Assembly (NCBI GenBank): GCA_947624555.1
Contig: CANQKW010000005.1
Span: 1-64,000, forward strand
DNA from: an uncultured Clostridia bacterium
GTDB lineage: Bacteria; Bacillota; Clostridia; Oscillospirales; Ruminococcaceae
Direction of reading: 5' to 3'
DNA length: 64,000 nt
Shown here: positions 14,047 to 22,720 of the stretch, in pieces
Numbering within the stretch: position 1 is the stretch's first letter
How the letters are laid out: each line of letters begins with the position of its first letter
The notes under the pieces: model-generated
Told to the model about the DNA's origin: nothing
Seen by the model: the letters and a program-made list of their open reading frames with translations, nothing else
Database searches by the model: none
Translations under genes and position numbers: made by a program

Positions 14047-15660
14047 TCAGTACACGCCGACAGCGTACGTTGAAAGGTCGGGCAGTTCGTCACGGGTGAT
14101 GAAAAGCGTACTGTTGTAGGAAGTATTCAGCGAGGAAAGCGAATTATACTCCGAAGAAAGCATACCGTTTTCCTTGATGATGTATTTTCCGCTTTCAACG
14201 GCACTCCAAAGCCACAGTGCATTATCGCGTTTCATAAAATCGGCGTTGGGCAAAACATCTCGCGAGGTCGCCGCAATAGGCTTTCTCGTCAGGAACGAGT
14301 CCGAAAGGACCGAAAATCTCCCTGCAAAGGAAGAATCGGAATTTTCAAATATGCTTTGTCCTATTATGTCGCAATAGTCTGCTCCGGGGTAATAGCTTGT
14401 ACTTCCGCCGTTCCATACCCATATAAGATTTGACAGTTTATGATAGCGGCAAAGTCTGTCGAAAATCAGCCTGTAAAGTTTCTGATAATCTTCAGCGTTG
14501 TTTCCCCACCAGTAAAGTCCCGAATCACCGCTCGGAACAGGCTCAAAAATAACCGGTATCTTTTCCTTGCTGAAAAGTTCAAGCACAAGAGCTATTTTAT
14601 CTATATCGTTCAGTAATGTTACCGTATACGGCGACAAAAAGTTGTTTTCGACCATTGTGATAAGCTCGTCCGATGTCATAAGAGCGACATCTTCGAGATT
14701 TGTCACATCAAGTGCCTCGTGAGTATCAAACGCACCCAAATCGACCGAACGCCTTGTATTCGGAGAGTACCAGTGCCACTTGTATGAAACTATGCCGTTG
14801 TTTTTGCCCCATTCAAGGGCAAGCTCTGTGTCCTTTTGGACCTTGTTCATACTCTCCTCGTCGTCAAGGACAGCCGCAGCAAGCTCGCTTGTGCGAATTG
14901 CCGGGTATCTGCCTGTTGCCTTGTAGACAGCCTCGATTTCCGCATTTGTGCCGAAGGAAACGTTCGCCGCAGTAAGAACTCCTGTTCCGTATATCTCTGT
15001 AAGATATTTCACAACGCCGACCGTTTCAAGGCTTGCAGAAGGATTTACCGCAGAAGTGCCTGTTTTATAGCAGAACGGGTCTACCGCATCAGAATTTTCC
15101 ACGAGAATATAGTCGATGTCGGCATCTCCCTTTTCGACTTCAAAATCCATAACGTTTGAGCCGCCCGACAGATAAACAGAGTCCACCGCATAATATTCAA
15201 AGCTGTTTTCGCTGTTTTCGGACGCAGGCGGAATGTAAAATTCGCCCTCTGCTCTCTTTTTGATATAAAGCTTTATTGCCGCACCGTTTTCAGACCTTGC
15301 GGCGATAATTATTCTGTAAAATTGCGTAGTATTTGCGTTTACAATATGGGTAAGCTTTCCCTTTTCTTTAAATCGAAGGTAGCTTTTTCCGTCAAAATCT
15401 CCGTCCACAAGCTCATAAGCGTCCTCGAAAACCCCACCCTCTGCATTAAGCTTTGACAGGAAATTCTGTTTAACAACGATATAATCGCTTGTGGTATAGG
15501 CGTCGGATTTTCCCGAACTTTCCGACGACTGCTCCTGTTCGGTGTCGTCAGATAGATCTCCGCTCACGGTATAATCGGGGATTTTTGAACAGCCCGAAAT
15601 GATTGCCGCTGCAAGCAGCATTGCCGTAAATTTTAAATAATTCTTCATATATAAACTCAC
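14047..15660 (-). CDS. Lipoprotein with CBM-like N-terminal domain and GH26 (beta-mannanase)-like domain lacking canonical catalytic residues
   Basis: Lipobox AAIISGC; GH26-like GIVSYKWHWYSPN, IPVIFEPVPSGDSGLYWWGN, NLIWVWNGGSTSYYPGADYCDIIG; only ORF in this frame, intact. Confidence 0.75.
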   Translation of the reverse strand: MSLYMKNYLKFTAMLLAAAIISGCSKIPDYTVSGDLSDDTEQEQSSESSGKSDAYTTSDYIVVKQNFLSKLNAEGGVFEDAYELVDGDFDGKSYLRFKEKGKLTHIVNANTTQFYRIIIAARSENGAAIKLYIKKRAEGEFYIPPASENSENSFEYYAVDSVYLSGGSNVMDFEVEKGDADIDYILVENSDAVDPFCYKTGTSAVNPSASLETVGVVKYLTEIYGTGVLTAANVSFGTNAEIEAVYKATGRYPAIRTSELAAAVLDDEESMNKVQKDTELALEWGKNNGIVSYKWHWYSPNTRRSVDLGAFDTHEALDVTNLEDVALMTSDELITMVENNFLSPYTVTLLNDIDKIALVLELFSKEKIPVIFEPVPSGDSGLYWWGNNAEDYQKLYRLIFDRLCRYHKLSNLIWVWNGGSTSYYPGADYCDIIGQSIFENSDSSFAGRFSVLSDSFLTRKPIAATSRDVLPNADFMKRDNALWLWSAVESGKYIIKENGMLSSEYNSLSSLNTSYNSTLFITRDELPDLSTYAVGVY

Positions 15661-15667
15661 AAGAACG

Positions 15668-17773
15668 TTATTCTATAACAATAACATCACCATTATGTAT
15701 TACCTCGTCAAGACGGGCTATCTTGCCGTTTATCGTTATTACCCCTGCGTGAGCGAGCAGCTGTGTCGGGTCGTCCGAAAAAGCCGCCGCCACATCAAGG
15801 AAAATCGGCGGTTTCCCGTCACTTCTCGCAGGAAAACGTGTTTCAATCCCGTTTACCGTGACAATAGGCTCATTTTCATTTGTTTGGACAGGGTCTTGTC
15901 CGACCTCGTCGGCAGGCGATACGGATTTTGCGACCTCTGTGAAAGGCTTTGCATAATCTATAATATCTCCGCTGTTCAGCAGCTCAGAATTATCCGCTTT
16001 TTTGCCGTTAAGGAGAACATCGCCGTTTATACCGAGCGACGCCGTAAGCTTTCCGAGAGTTTCTTTCTCAACAAGGACTATTTCATCGCCCTCGTTTATG
16101 CGTCTGTCGCCGAAAACCACTTTTCCGTTTATCATAACGAAAACACCTGCACGGGTTTTCTTGCCGAAAGCGTTTACCGTAAACGACTTTATCTTCTGCA
16201 TCTCAAAATAATCCGAAATATGAGCCGACGCATTTTCTCCCTTTTTTGCAGGAACAATTACCGCCTCATCGCCCTTTGCAACAACGGTATTAAGCGACGC
16301 TGCCTCTCCGTTCAAAAGAATTTCCGAAGGCTTTGCAGGCTCGCCCCGAAGTGTGACAGGTTCTCCGTTTAACGTAAACGAGAGCGATTTTCCTGCGCCT
16401 GCAATAAGGTCTTCGGGCTTGATTTTCGCAAAATTAAGAAGTTCAAAAATCGTAAGCCGCCTTGTGTCAAGCGCACGGAGCTTTTTACCGTTGACAGTAA
16501 TTGTAGTAAAATCGTAGGAAACGCCCTCGCCGTAGCTCAAAGCAATTCCCAAAGGAGTGGCGTGCTCTGCGTCAAGGGGCATATCTTCGGGGGAGATTAT
16601 TCTTCTGAAAAGCTCTTTTCTTCCGATAATAACTCTTGATTTATCCATTTTAAGCTCGCCTGCAACACGCTCTGCAAGTCCTTCTATCTTACTGCCTCCG
16701 CCTACGAGAAATACCGCCTGCGGAGGAGTCGCATTTGCCGAAAGTATTTCCTGTGCCACAACCTTTGCAAGCTCTTCTATCGCAGGAGCGATTATTTCAA
16801 GCACACGGTTTTTGTTAATCAAATTCTCCCTCAAAAGAATATCTGTATAGACGATCTCGTCCTCGGAGCTTGTTTTCAGCATTTCTGCCGTGTTAAAATC
16901 CACCAGAAGTTCTTTCATTAACACTTCGGTTATTTCATCGCCTGCCGTTGTGGACATACCATAGGCAACGACACTTCCGTCACGTGAAACGGCGACATCG
17001 GAAGTGCCTGCGCCTATATCGCACAGTGCCAGATTGATAAGGCGAAGTTCAGAGGGAATTACCGCATTCATTGCCGCTATCGGTTCAAGGGTTATTCCCG
17101 AAATTTCAAGACCCGACTCGTCCACTGCCGAGCAAAGACTTTCCACAACATAAGCAGGCAAAAATGCCGCAATAATCTCTGTTGTAAGCCGCTCTCCCCT
17201 ATGACCCTCGGGTTTGGACACCTTAAATCCGTCAAGAGAAAGCGAAATAACGCTGTGACCCACGCAATAAAACGCCGAAGAGTCATTTTTCGAGGCAAAA
17301 TCCGCACACGTTCTGCGGACAGCGTCAAGCTCGGTTACCTTGAGAATTTCATCTGTAATCATTTTTTCCGTGGGAAGTTTGTATTCCCACGAGCAGCGAA
17401 CCGTTTTCAGCGCACGTCCGGCAGCAGCTATGCAGGCGGTTGAAAGCGAAATTCCTCTGCGCTGTTCAAGAGCTTTCTTGACCTTTTTAATGTCATCGGA
17501 AACAGCCTTGATATCCTCGATCTGACCGTCGCTCATACAACGTTTTTCGTGCGCTGCGGTTTCCATATCGAGAATTATACAGCCGTCAGGCGTTTTTTTC
17601 GCCAGCACGCCCACAACCGTGCGAGTGCCTATATCCAGCGCAAAAATTATATCGTTCTGCGGTGATTTTTTAGCGGCTGTTGATTTGGTTTCCTTCTTTT
17701 TGACAGCCTTTTTAACAGGCTTATCGCTTTTCTTCGGTCTTCCGACAGGTCGTTTCTTTTCCATAATCATCAC
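15668..17773 (-). CDS. FtsA/actin-fold ATPase with long C-terminal beta-grasp-like tail
   Basis: ALDIGTRTVVGVL, CDIGAGTSDVAVSRDG, VFLVGGGSKIEGLAERVA; C-terminal repeats of hNGxxx...GDxhxh; basic AT-hook-like N-terminus RPVGRPKK. Confidence 0.8.
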   Translation of the reverse strand: MMIMEKKRPVGRPKKSDKPVKKAVKKKETKSTAAKKSPQNDIIFALDIGTRTVVGVLAKKTPDGCIILDMETAAHEKRCMSDGQIEDIKAVSDDIKKVKKALEQRRGISLSTACIAAAGRALKTVRCSWEYKLPTEKMITDEILKVTELDAVRRTCADFASKNDSSAFYCVGHSVISLSLDGFKVSKPEGHRGERLTTEIIAAFLPAYVVESLCSAVDESGLEISGITLEPIAAMNAVIPSELRLINLALCDIGAGTSDVAVSRDGSVVAYGMSTTAGDEITEVLMKELLVDFNTAEMLKTSSEDEIVYTDILLRENLINKNRVLEIIAPAIEELAKVVAQEILSANATPPQAVFLVGGGSKIEGLAERVAGELKMDKSRVIIGRKELFRRIISPEDMPLDAEHATPLGIALSYGEGVSYDFTTITVNGKKLRALDTRRLTIFELLNFAKIKPEDLIAGAGKSLSFTLNGEPVTLRGEPAKPSEILLNGEAASLNTVVAKGDEAVIVPAKKGENASAHISDYFEMQKIKSFTVNAFGKKTRAGVFVMINGKVVFGDRRINEGDEIVLVEKETLGKLTASLGINGDVLLNGKKADNSELLNSGDIIDYAKPFTEVAKSVSPADEVGQDPVQTNENEPIVTVNGIETRFPARSDGKPPIFLDVAAAFSDDPTQLLAHAGVITINGKIARLDEVIHNGDVIVIE

Positions 17774-18438
17774 CCTTTTATCTTCAGCGCTCGTCTGAGT
17801 TCTTTTTCCTTTGAATTCATCATAACAACCAGCACTTCATCTCTGCTTAAAAGCATTGTACCGCCTCTTGGAATAATCGTTCTTCCGTCACGGTTTATGC
17901 AGGCTATATTGCACTGGTCGGGAAGAGAAAGCTCTGCAATTGTTTTTCCCTCATAGACATATCCTTCGGGCAGGGTTATCTGTACAAGAGAGGCTTCATC
18001 GTTGTCTTCGTCAAGCGAAAGCAGCCTTTTCATTGAGCTGAAATCAACCTCGTTCTCCAAAAGCTGGATAATATTATCCGTAGCAGAAACGACAATATCG
18101 ACGCCCAACTGTTTCATAACCTCTGCATTTTTGGGATTGTTTACTTTTGCGATAGTTTTTCTTATGCCGAACGCACGCTTTGCCACCTGACAGCAAATAA
18201 GATTACATTCGTCAAGTCCCGTGACCGCAATAATGCAGTCCGCTTTATCCGCTCCGCAGGACGCAAGCGTTTCAACGGAAGTGCCGTCTCCGCAGGACAC
18301 CTCTGCGTCGAGAGTATTTGCACAGTAACGGCTTTGTTCTTTATCATGCTCAATTATCGTTACCTCATAATCATGCTCCAAAAGCGTTTTCGTGAGATAA
18401 AAACCGACCTTTCCGCCGCCAACGATTATTGCTTTCAT
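17770..18438 (-). CDS. TrkA/RCK family potassium channel/transporter regulatory protein
   Basis: MKAIIVGGGKVGFYLTKTLLEHDYEVTIIEHD (Rossmann) plus RCK-C domain. Confidence 0.9.
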   Translation of the reverse strand: MKAIIVGGGKVGFYLTKTLLEHDYEVTIIEHDKEQSRYCANTLDAEVSCGDGTSVETLASCGADKADCIIAVTGLDECNLICCQVAKRAFGIRKTIAKVNNPKNAEVMKQLGVDIVVSATDNIIQLLENEVDFSSMKRLLSLDEDNDEASLVQITLPEGYVYEGKTIAELSLPDQCNIACINRDGRTIIPRGGTMLLSRDEVLVVMMNSKEKELRRALKIKG

Positions 18439-18449
18439 AATAATTTACC

Positions 18450-19070
18450 TCAATTCTTTTTGGCAAAAACCAGTTTATCGCCCATTTCAAACGCAACAGG
18501 CTGATCACGGTACAGAATAAATCCCGTGCTTTCGCGTATTATCCCGAAAAGCGACTCGTCACTTTCAAGCTCAATATCGCTTGGCAGACAGCCGATATAA
18601 TTCTCCGGAAGTCCTATTACCGAAAATTTTATCTGTGCGTTTCCGAATTGCAGCTCCTTATCCTCAGACTCGCCTTCATCAAGAGCCTTACACGCTGCAC
18701 TTACGGTAAGTTTAGTGGGGCTGATTATATTCACATCGAGATTTTCAAACACGCTGCATTTCGCAACATTATCCACTCTCACGAAGATTTTCTGTACGTT
18801 GAACACACATTTTGCTATCTGTGCGGTCATTAAATTCATATCGTCGTTGTCCGTAACGGCAAAAAGCACATCGCAGGAACCTATTCCCGCACGCTTTAAA
18901 ACGTCCTGGTCGATAGCTATTCCTGTTGCGGTAAATCCGCTGAAATTCGCAGGCAGCGAGTCAAAACTGTCGGCGTTTCTGTCAATGACCGAAATATCGT
19001 TTCCCTTTCTGTCAAGCTCCGCCGCAAGCGTACTGCCCACCGTGCCGCAGCCTATGATCAGTATGTTCAT
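18450..19070 (-). CDS. TrkA/RCK family regulatory protein, second copy
   Basis: MNILIIGCGTVGSTLAAELDRKGNDISVIDRN plus RCK-C-like domain. Confidence 0.9.
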   Translation of the reverse strand: MNILIIGCGTVGSTLAAELDRKGNDISVIDRNADSFDSLPANFSGFTATGIAIDQDVLKRAGIGSCDVLFAVTDNDDMNLMTAQIAKCVFNVQKIFVRVDNVAKCSVFENLDVNIISPTKLTVSAACKALDEGESEDKELQFGNAQIKFSVIGLPENYIGCLPSDIELESDESLFGIIRESTGFILYRDQPVAFEMGDKLVFAKKN

Positions 19071-19089
19071 AAAAACACCTCAAAGTATG

Positions 19090-20463
19090 TTATTTTCCGA
19101 CGCAAAATCTTTTGAACACCTCAGCGATGACCTCATCGCCTGCTTTCTTTCCCGAAAGCTCATAAACAGCGTCAAGCGCAGCCTCAAGCTCTACTCCGAC
19201 AGCGTCTGCGGTAACTCCTGCGGTTACTGCCGAAAGAGCCGCACGGACGTGTTCTTCCGCACGGATAACGCAGGCTCTCTGCCGCTCGTTTGCAAGAAAT
19301 CCTGCATTACCGTCAAATCTGTCAAGCTTTAGCCGTGACGTTATCTCTTTTCCGATTATCTCAGCTGCTTTTCCCTCTTTCGCCGAAATTACCGCAGCTT
19401 TTCCTAACCGACTTTCAACGGCGTTAAGGTCAAGCTTTATCTCCAAATCGCTTTTATTTACGACAGGAATAACGTTTTTGCTGCCGATATGCTCTATCAG
19501 ACGCAAATCCTCGTCCGAAAGCTCTTTTGAGCCGTCAAAAACAGCCAAAACGACATCTGCGTTTTCAAGGCGCTTCAGCATAATTTCCACGCCGATTTTT
19601 TCAATTTCATCATCGGTTTCACGTATTCCTGCACAGTCCGAAAGCAGGCAGACCGCACCGTTTAAATTTACCGTTTCCTCGACAATATCTCTTGTTGTTC
19701 CTGCAACCGAGCTTACAATGCTCCGTTGACGACCCGAAAGGCTGTTCATAATCGTGGACTTGCCGACGTTGGGTTTTCCGACGATAACGCAGGAAATTCC
19801 CTCACGGATAAGCCGTCCCGTGTCATATTCCGAAAGCAGCTCACTGAGATCATTTTCTACATCGGACAGCTTTTCCGAAAGCCATTCGGGAGTTACAACG
19901 GGGGTATCGTCGTCAGGATAATCTATCCAGGCGGAAATTTGAGCGGATACCTCCATTATTTTCTCAGAAACAGCCTCTGCTCTTCGGTATAACGCCCCCT
20001 CACGCTGTGCGTTCGAGCAGGACAAAAGCTGCTGTCCCTGCGCTGAAATTATATCTGCAACTGCCTCCGCCTGAGTAAGCGACATTTTCCCGTTGAGCAG
20101 CGCTCTTTTGGTAAATTCACCCGCCGCAGCAGGCTCTGCTCCCGATTTAAGGCAAGCCGTAAGCACACGCTGCGTCACATAAATGCCGCCGTGGCAGAAA
20201 ATTTCGCAAACGTCCTCTCCCGTATAGGAATGAGGTGCTCTGTAAACCAGCAAAACTCCGTCATCCAGCCGCTCACCGCCGTCAAATATTTTACCGTAAG
20301 CCGCCGTGTAGCCTTTCATTTCCTTTACCTCGATTTTAGGATAAAACGGCTTGAAAACCTTTCCGGCAATTTCAAAAGCCTGCTCTCCCGAAATCCTTAC
20401 TGCGGAAATTCCGCCTACAGCGGCAGGTGTAGCAATAGCGCAAACGGTCGACAAAAAACTCAC
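19090..20463 (-). CDS. mnmE: tRNA modification GTPase MnmE
   Basis: STVCAIATPAAVGGISAVRISG, GKPNVGKSTIMN, GTTRDIVEETV, C-terminal CVGK; start set to GTG at 20463 (the longer ORF only reads through the secA-like 3' end). Confidence 0.96.
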   Translation of the reverse strand: MSFLSTVCAIATPAAVGGISAVRISGEQAFEIAGKVFKPFYPKIEVKEMKGYTAAYGKIFDGGERLDDGVLLVYRAPHSYTGEDVCEIFCHGGIYVTQRVLTACLKSGAEPAAAGEFTKRALLNGKMSLTQAEAVADIISAQGQQLLSCSNAQREGALYRRAEAVSEKIMEVSAQISAWIDYPDDDTPVVTPEWLSEKLSDVENDLSELLSEYDTGRLIREGISCVIVGKPNVGKSTIMNSLSGRQRSIVSSVAGTTRDIVEETVNLNGAVCLLSDCAGIRETDDEIEKIGVEIMLKRLENADVVLAVFDGSKELSDEDLRLIEHIGSKNVIPVVNKSDLEIKLDLNAVESRLGKAAVISAKEGKAAEIIGKEITSRLKLDRFDGNAGFLANERQRACVIRAEEHVRAALSAVTAGVTADAVGVELEAALDAVYELSGKKAGDEVIAEVFKRFCVGK

Positions 20464-20464
20464 C

Positions 20465-22720
20465 TTATTTCTTCCCGAACAATTTTTTGAAAAATCCCTG
20501 CTTTTCTCCGTCCTGCTCTGTATCGGAAGAGCTTTCTTCGTCATCATCTTCTGAGAAAACATTAAGCAGGATAGGCTTAGCCTTAAACTCCTCAGCCATA
20601 TCATTCAGCAGATAGGTATAGAGATTTGTGGGCTTTTCTATTTTGTAATCCTCAATTTTATCGCAGCGGACAAGCTCTTCCAGCTTTTCGCCCATTCTTT
20701 CGGGAACGGACTTTGTAGCGCTTTCGTAATACTCCTCGCAGGCGATATTGTATTCCTCGGCAGGATTTCTTCCTGCAATCTGCGTAAGATGTATGCCCTC
20801 ACGCAAATAAGCCGTATAGTCAAGATAATCGCTGTGAAATTCGTTCAGGAGAGCCGCAAGCACTTCATTTTCCAGCTTTGCGACTGCCTCTTTCGAGAAT
20901 TTTTCACAGGCTTTTTCGTATAATTCGGGACTGTATTTCTGCCACATATCGGAATTATATTCTCCGTCAAGCAGCGCATTTCTCTTTGAAAAGGTCATTT
21001 CACGGTGCTTTTCACCGATAAACGTGTATTTCATCAGATTTACACGCTCGTCAAAAGCGTTGCTTTCGGATATTCTCTGGATACGCTCTGCCTCTCGCAG
21101 GACGGTTTTGTCTGTAACAGCTCCCTCAAACGCCTCTGTGGGATAATGTCTTCCGCAGAGCTTTTTCAAGCCGTTTTTCACCATAATTTCATCGTCAAGA
21201 GCCGCAAAAAACCTGCTCTCTCCGACATCTCCCTGACGTCCTGCTCTTCCCCTGAGCTGCTGTGCGATACGTGAGCTTTCTCTCATTGATGTTATGATAA
21301 CAAGCAGACCGCCCACAGAAACCACAAAATCCTTATCCGAACTGTCCTCGCCGCCCAGCTTTATATCGACGCCGCGTCCTGCCATATTTGTTGAAATGGT
21401 GACTGCGCCCCGTTCGCCTGCTTTTGCGATAATTCCTGCCTCTTCAAAGTTATTTTTGGCATTGAGGACTTTACATTCAATGCCGATTTTCATAAGCTCT
21501 TCGGCAAGGCTTTCGCTTTCGCTGATGCTCTCCGTTCCTACAAGCACAGGACGCTTTTTTTCGTAAGCCTCTTTTACGGCGTTTACAACGGCTTTTCTCT
21601 TTTCCTCGCCGTTAAAATAAATCTCAACAGGGTGGTCTATTCTTTTACAGGGCAGCCTTGTGGGAATGATTGCAGTAAGCATTCCGTAGAACTTTTCAAA
21701 CTCTTCCTGCGAGGTTTCGGCTGTTCCCGTCATACCTGAAATTTTCGGGTAAAGCCGTGCAAAATACTGCAAAGCGATACTTCCGATAATTCTGCCTCTT
21801 GAAGTGATTTTAAGCCCGTGTTTTGCCTCGCAGGCAGACTGAACCTCTCCGGGGAAAACACGCCCTGCGGCGGCTCTTCCCGTAAATTCGTCGATTAGAA
21901 CGATTTTCCCGTCCTTTACGATATAATCCTTATCCTCCTGCAAAATGTCCCTTGCCTTTATGCAGGCGGTAATTTTTGCAAGAAGTCCCGTGTTTTTTTC
22001 GCTGTAAATGTTATCTGCGGAAAATATCATTTCAGCCTTGTCCGCACCGTTATCGGTAAGATAAATATTTCTCGATTCCTCGTCGAACTCATAATCGCCT
22101 TCGGAAAAACAGTCTATTTTCCCGTAAACAGCGGCTGTGCTGCCGTTTTCACGGACAGCGACATCTCCTGCGATAACAAGAGGTATCCTCGCCTCGTCGA
22201 TAAGAATGCTGTCCGCCTCGTCGAAAATCGCAAAATCGGGCTTTGGAAAGCACATTTTTTCGGTTTCAAAGCAAGCAAAATCTTTGAGATAATCAAATCC
22301 CGCCTCTTTTGCGGTAATGTATACGACCTGCCTGAGATAAATCTCTCTGCGCTGTTCACGGGGAGTATCTTCGGTGATACAGCCAACCGAAACGCCCATT
22401 TCATCATAAACGGGTTTCATCCACTCGCAGTCACGTTTTGCCAGATAATCGTTAAACGTAAGTACGTGGACGTTTCCGCCGTTCAATGCGTGACAGCAAG
22501 CGGCAAAAACCGCACAGAGCGTCTTGCCCTCGCCCGTCTGCATCTGCACTATTTTCCCTTCGGAGAGCGCCAAAGCCGCCTCAAGCTGTTGGTCGAAAGG
22601 CGTTATTTCAAGAGTTTTTTCCACCGCTTTATAACAACGGGCAAAAATTTCTTCTTTGGTATTTCCCGAAAAATCGCCCGAAAAAACGAGCTGTTTTATT
22701 TTTTCAACCGTTTTGTTCAA
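20465..22720 (-). CDS. secA2: SecA-family ATPase, short form (SecA2-like)
   Basis: QMQTGEGKTL, TFNDYLAKRD, DEADSILIDEARIPL, GTESISESESLAEEL, STNMAGRGVDIKLGG, QLRGRAGRQGDVGES; 751 aa, no C-terminal zinc-binding tail. Confidence 0.82.
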   Translation of the reverse strand: MNKTVEKIKQLVFSGDFSGNTKEEIFARCYKAVEKTLEITPFDQQLEAALALSEGKIVQMQTGEGKTLCAVFAACCHALNGGNVHVLTFNDYLAKRDCEWMKPVYDEMGVSVGCITEDTPREQRREIYLRQVVYITAKEAGFDYLKDFACFETEKMCFPKPDFAIFDEADSILIDEARIPLVIAGDVAVRENGSTAAVYGKIDCFSEGDYEFDEESRNIYLTDNGADKAEMIFSADNIYSEKNTGLLAKITACIKARDILQEDKDYIVKDGKIVLIDEFTGRAAAGRVFPGEVQSACEAKHGLKITSRGRIIGSIALQYFARLYPKISGMTGTAETSQEEFEKFYGMLTAIIPTRLPCKRIDHPVEIYFNGEEKRKAVVNAVKEAYEKKRPVLVGTESISESESLAEELMKIGIECKVLNAKNNFEEAGIIAKAGERGAVTISTNMAGRGVDIKLGGEDSSDKDFVVSVGGLLVIITSMRESSRIAQQLRGRAGRQGDVGESRFFAALDDEIMVKNGLKKLCGRHYPTEAFEGAVTDKTVLREAERIQRISESNAFDERVNLMKYTFIGEKHREMTFSKRNALLDGEYNSDMWQKYSPELYEKACEKFSKEAVAKLENEVLAALLNEFHSDYLDYTAYLREGIHLTQIAGRNPAEEYNIACEEYYESATKSVPERMGEKLEELVRCDKIEDYKIEKPTNLYTYLLNDMAEEFKAKPILLNVFSEDDDEESSSDTEQDGEKQGFFKKLFGKK

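Follow-up and report, generated by a model that had tools for sequence, protein, structure and literature searches.

A GH26-family lipoprotein without its catalytic glutamate pair, retained across a gut genus of Clostridia, is probably a pseudoenzyme

The window, a stretch of 64,000 nucleotides from an uncultured Clostridia bacterium, carries on its minus strand an open reading frame (14047..15660) that encodes a GH26-like lipoprotein of 537 amino acids when read from the GTG at 15660, from which all residue numbers below are counted. Because the orthologues start with MKK, the ATG at 15648 is the more likely start (533 amino acids), a minor correction to the GTG. Sequence inspection predicted a signal peptide (15589..15648, minus strand) ending in the lipobox IISGC, in which Cys24 is the predicted lipidation site; this residue was invariant in 65 of 65 relatives, and the sequence has the signature of a bacterial lipoprotein. 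A CBM35-like beta-sandwich (residues ~60-200; 15061..15483) and a GH26 barrel (residues 205-524; 14089..15048) follow on the same strand.

Directly upstream lies an FtsA/PilM-like gene with ThiS-like repeats (15668..17773, minus strand), which was recognized by Pfam and, judging from the gap and synteny, is probably co-transcribed with the GH26-like gene. Promoter and terminator scans gave nothing above chance. Two trkA-like genes, mnmE, and secA (17770..22720, minus strand) make up the rest of a conserved string, as indicated by inspection and synteny; except for the FtsA-like gene, the gene names at the locus were assigned by sequence inspection. The order secA, mnmE, two trkA-like genes, the FtsA/PilM-like gene, and the GH26-like gene, convergent to nth, was common to much of the genus, and the gap between the last two genes, where measured, was mostly below 30 bp or a small overlap. 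Most genomes of the genus and many of its sister genus showed this adjacency; elsewhere in the family, no relative of the GH26-like gene was found beside the FtsA-like gene in the sampled genera that carry the latter. In one subclade (L025, L030, L037, and L038), the GH26-like gene directly followed the trkA pair and no FtsA-like match lay in between, and G034 of the same subclade gave no FtsA-like match at E 1e-40. With such a subclade lacking the FtsA-like gene at the locus, an obligate FtsA-like partner is unlikely. The FtsA/PilM-like protein, whose ThiS-like repeats are C-terminal, was found in 30 of 124 genera of the family, a patchy distribution, and the genome encodes two further FtsA-domain proteins. 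In four genomes (L158, L161, L164, and L170), a second lipoprotein of ~450 amino acids, SGNH-esterase-like by eye, was encoded after the GH26-like gene on the same strand.

The Pfam profile PF02156 (Glyco_hydro_26) was matched from position 1 to 310 of 311 by residues 205-524 with an E-value of 4.7e-36, and Foldseek aligned the protein with GH26 structures at TM scores of up to 0.83 by target length; the whole barrel thus belongs to GH26 by both fold and sequence. The AlphaFold model, built from the 65 relatives, had a mean pLDDT of 88.7, with residues 1-51 below 50. The best solved relative was the CBM35-GH26 mannanase PaMan26A (3zm8), with E-values of 6.8e-33 by phmmer and 9.5e-37 by Foldseek, and its structure aligned across both domains. 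The N-terminal domain showed the CBM35 fold (2w1w, TM 0.81 by target length); the Pfam CBM_35 profile did not match the window protein, though it matched 21 of the 65 relatives. The NCBIfam search of the window protein returned zero matches. In the initial annotation, the intact frame, the lipobox, the GH26 landmarks, and two altered motifs had been read by eye, and all were found in place, with the motifs running from ~14559 and ~14283. The mannanase-like fold suggested there was borne out by Pfam and Foldseek, and the CBM35-like N-terminal domain likewise stood, on the basis of its fold.

The catalytic centre was compared with that of PaMan26A, whose catalytic residues are E300 and E390 (PMC3838371). 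In the phmmer alignment, RPLHEAEGGWFWWG lay opposite EPVPSGDSGLYWWG and IAAAEVGAAP lay opposite IAATSRDVLP, each motif being ungapped. From the known positions in PaMan26A, the acid/base glutamate corresponds to S377 and the nucleophile to S466, which agrees with the alignment of both glutamates to Ser made earlier by eye. An active enzyme needs two glutamates, the acid/base on strand 4 and the nucleophile on strand 7, and the window protein has Ser in each place. In the former acid/base loop (residues 372-386; 14503..14547, minus strand), E373 replaces the invariant Arg of RPxHE, P376 replaces the His before the acid/base, and a new D379 is present, whereas the former nucleophile loop (residues 462-470; 14251..14277, minus strand) carries the E466-to-Ser change. 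A misalignment in which a nearby Glu takes over the catalytic role was rejected, since the motifs are ungapped and the only Glu nearby, E373, stands for an Arg.

The active-site positions were compared between 43 sequences of the genus and 43 active-type relatives, defined as those with both Glu present. R373, E377, D436, and E466, among others, were invariant in the active set and gone in the genus, and Trp489 (42 of 43 active relatives) was likewise gone. In the window protein, residue 436 (14353..14355, minus strand), an Asp in 43 of 43 active relatives, is Ser, and residue 489 (14194..14196, minus strand) is Glu. The loss of these five residues indicates that the centre of the active site was dismantled, well beyond a swap of two residues, and the loss of D436 and Trp489 speaks against mannose still being held in the manner of the enzymes. 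The barrel face retained invariant tryptophans and aspartates in the genus (W295, W297, W384, W385, D431, and W483), and P376, D379 (or Glu), P425, G434, Q435, and A446, among others, were newly fixed. The C-terminal ends of the barrel strands were better conserved than the rest (entropy 1.16 vs 1.61; permutation p 0.0013). However, the opposite strand ends were almost as conserved as this catalytic face (1.26 vs 1.16), so that fold constraint may explain part of the conservation.

An orthologue, 42-70% identical, was found in all 43 genomes sampled from the genus, most of which are probably metagenome-assembled. None of the 43 carried both glutamates together; L019 retained Glu at position 377 only and L072 at position 466 only. 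Position 377 was Asp in 27 of 43 and Asn in 12 of 43, the full range being D, N, S, E, Y, and H; position 466 was Ala in 20 and Ser in 16 of 43, with A, S, F, R, T, N, G, and E all seen. The commonest combination was Pro-Asp together with a nucleophile position occupied by Ala or Ser. The clade of the window has Asn at 377, where the window itself has Ser. Consequently, the Glu-to-Ser change expected from the window was not itself conserved; Ser at both sites is the version of the window lineage. In the twelve nearest pairs, dN/dS was 0.09-0.25. The gene was split into two frames in G024 (73% complete), possibly by an assembly error. The earlier proposal of a pseudoenzyme, not a decaying gene, was upheld, as the loss was common to 43 of 43 genomes under purifying selection. 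For the same reason, the changes were not the random inactivation that the initial annotation had named as the mark of simple decay. The gene therefore combines lost catalytic residues with retention by selection, as a pseudoenzyme does.

When the two active-site segments were left out of the tree, the genus formed a single clade (SH-aLRT 99), which joined the copies of the sister genus with a support of 85 (unstarred). These sister copies (L116 and others) also lie behind the FtsA-like gene, but in 21 of 35 rows the two Glu and the remaining active-site residues were retained, and the His was altered. The other 14 of 35 rows had lost one or both Glu in several separate lineages.

Mannan use in the genus was judged by the presence of GH130, which was found in 22 of 43 genomes and was absent from the genome of the window. 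On the tree of the GH26-like protein, the state of GH130 changed three times; by this measure, mannan use disappeared within the genus on about three occasions, and the protein was kept each time. In 13 of the 22 GH130 genomes, a GH130 gene lay within 12 kb of the GH26-like gene on the same contig. In these 13 genomes, a GH130 gene of ~395 amino acids headed the same gene string upstream of the NUDIX-secA block (L158-L170), and at L165-L167 it lay near the FtsA-like and GH26-like genes after rearrangement. In 17 genomes, including that of the window, the GH26-like protein was the only GH26 match and GH130 was absent. An obligate partner in mannan use was rejected, as GH130 was absent from 21 of 43 genomes and the protein was present in all 43. 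This retention suggests that the protein probably arose in a mannan-using ancestor and outlived the trait, and its persistence in species that lost mannan use indicates a present role other than mannan feeding. Asp377 was present in 22 of 22 GH130 genomes, and all four losses of Asp377 occurred where GH130 was absent. These four losses fell on 38% of the branch length, giving a naive p of 0.02 for a pattern noticed post hoc; by independent pairs, the association was non-significant, with too few pairs, and the link between Asp377 and GH130 is suggestive only.

A GH26 fold that has lost both catalytic Glu and other active-site residues, sits at a fixed locus, is under purifying selection, and has fixed new residues on its catalytic face is, in our judgement, probably a pseudoenzyme, namely a non-hydrolytic, lipid-anchored binding or scaffold protein encoded by a vertically inherited core gene of the genus. 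Such a protein, with its CBM35-like domain and dead GH26 barrel, would sit on the outer face of the membrane and would no longer hydrolyze glycosides. The remodelled cleft, the CBM35-like domain, or both may bind a ligand, which is most likely an envelope glycan or one from the surroundings, and the protein may act as a receptor or scaffold. Several points count against this reading: the comparable GH26B protein of Segatella copri, described below, bound nothing tested, the aspartate that most species have at 377 could reflect some residual chemistry, the catalytic face is only slightly better conserved than the opposite strand ends, and the genomes are for the most part probably metagenome-assembled. 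A wider and bolder account, which we regard as conceivable but rather doubtful, is that a secreted mannanase, its gene fixed next to the FtsA-like one, turned step by step into an envelope protein that is a genus-defining core receptor or scaffold. On this path, Pro would have replaced the His, Asp and later Asn or Ser would have replaced the acid/base Glu, Ala or Ser would have replaced the nucleophile, and the mannose-site Trp and Asp would have been removed. Two genera would then contain living intermediates, and some members with Asp377 may keep residual or new chemistry.

Other explanations were weighed against the binding or scaffold protein. A mannan-binding surface protein for beta-mannan utilization, the counterpart of glycan-binding proteins in the mannan loci of Bacteroidota, is suggested by descent from a mannanase, the CBM35-like domain, the proximity of GH130 (within 12 kb) in 13 genomes, and the confinement of all four Asp377 losses to GH130-less lineages. 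This role is nevertheless unlikely: the last pattern is post hoc and non-significant by independent pairs, key residues of the mannose site are lost, and the protein was kept in 21 GH130-less genomes, being the sole GH26 match in 17 of them. We also think it improbable, somewhat more so, that the protein has remained an enzyme by rebuilding its active site, with Asp377 (in most species), Asp379, or Asp468 serving as acid and base, perhaps on a substrate other than mannan. Residue 379 is indeed Asp or Glu in 43 of 43, residue 468 is Asp in most orthologues, and Asp377 occurs in 27 of 43, including every GH130-bearing genome. However, the window protein has Ser at both catalytic positions, Arg373, Asp436, and Trp489 are also gone, and Asp468 is found in some active relatives too. 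Moreover, Asp468 is Ala in three orthologues, which leaves D379 as the one new acid close to the former site that all orthologues share; a standard retaining mechanism thus appears very unlikely from the residues present.

A joint role with the FtsA-like protein in cell division or the growth of the envelope would fit the gene arrangement: in most of the genus, and in many sister-genus genomes, the two genes are neighbours, as a rule within 30 bp of each other or overlapping. Nevertheless, the FtsA-like protein is cytoplasmic and the GH26-like protein lipid-anchored outside, and neither L025, L030, L037, and L038 at the locus nor G034 at E 1e-40 gave an FtsA-like match, so we give this partnership little credence. 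Still harder to credit is a decaying former mannanase without function. The catalytic positions do differ among species, as decay would allow, but the gene was kept by all 43 genomes with long open frames in nearly all (G024 being split); on the grounds of this retention, the low dN/dS, and the residue conservation, simple decay was rejected.

In the open-access literature searched, only one conserved dead GH26 was found, namely GH26B of S. copri PUL7, with no ligand found. It has lost both catalytic Glu, the loss is conserved in many genomes, and the protein is predicted to face outward (PMC12704710). Hydrolysis of beta-mannosides was not detected, and the mannans and oligosaccharides tested were not bound (PMC12704710). 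A dead GH26 with a conserved loss is, by this precedent, already a known kind. However, the S. copri protein belongs to Bacteroidota, is encoded, along with a SusC/D pair, in a glucomannan locus, and reportedly lacks a Cys directly after the signal peptide (PMC12704710), whereas the window protein has a classic lipobox and a CBM35-like domain and is encoded by a core chromosomal gene that, in the window, lies outside a mannan locus. The two proteins thus come from different phyla and genomic settings and differ in their domains, and the present one is independent of a mannan locus. PaMan26A, the top match by both sequence and structure, shares the domain order and fold, but is active with E300 and E390, both of which are Ser in the window protein. 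YKL-39, Klotho, and CyRPA are pseudoglycosidases (review PMC7828330) that likewise keep a glycosidase fold for another role after the loss of catalysis, although they belong to other GH families and to eukaryotic organisms.

Every sampled species of this gut genus has kept the dead GH26 lineage, with or without genes for mannan use, and a GH26 annotation alone would overcount mannan degraders. The intact copies at the same locus in the sister genus provide a ready series for testing the change from a glycosidase to a non-enzyme and the purpose for which the latter is retained. In that sister genus (g16; L116-L147), the losses among the FtsA-linked GH26 copies showed the patterns ADD, SDD, PQE, PTE, and HQE and constitute a second set of dead or dying GH26 proteins. 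In another genus (g64; L150-L152), the His that precedes the acid/base Glu was replaced by Asn in GH26 relatives, giving the pattern NEE.
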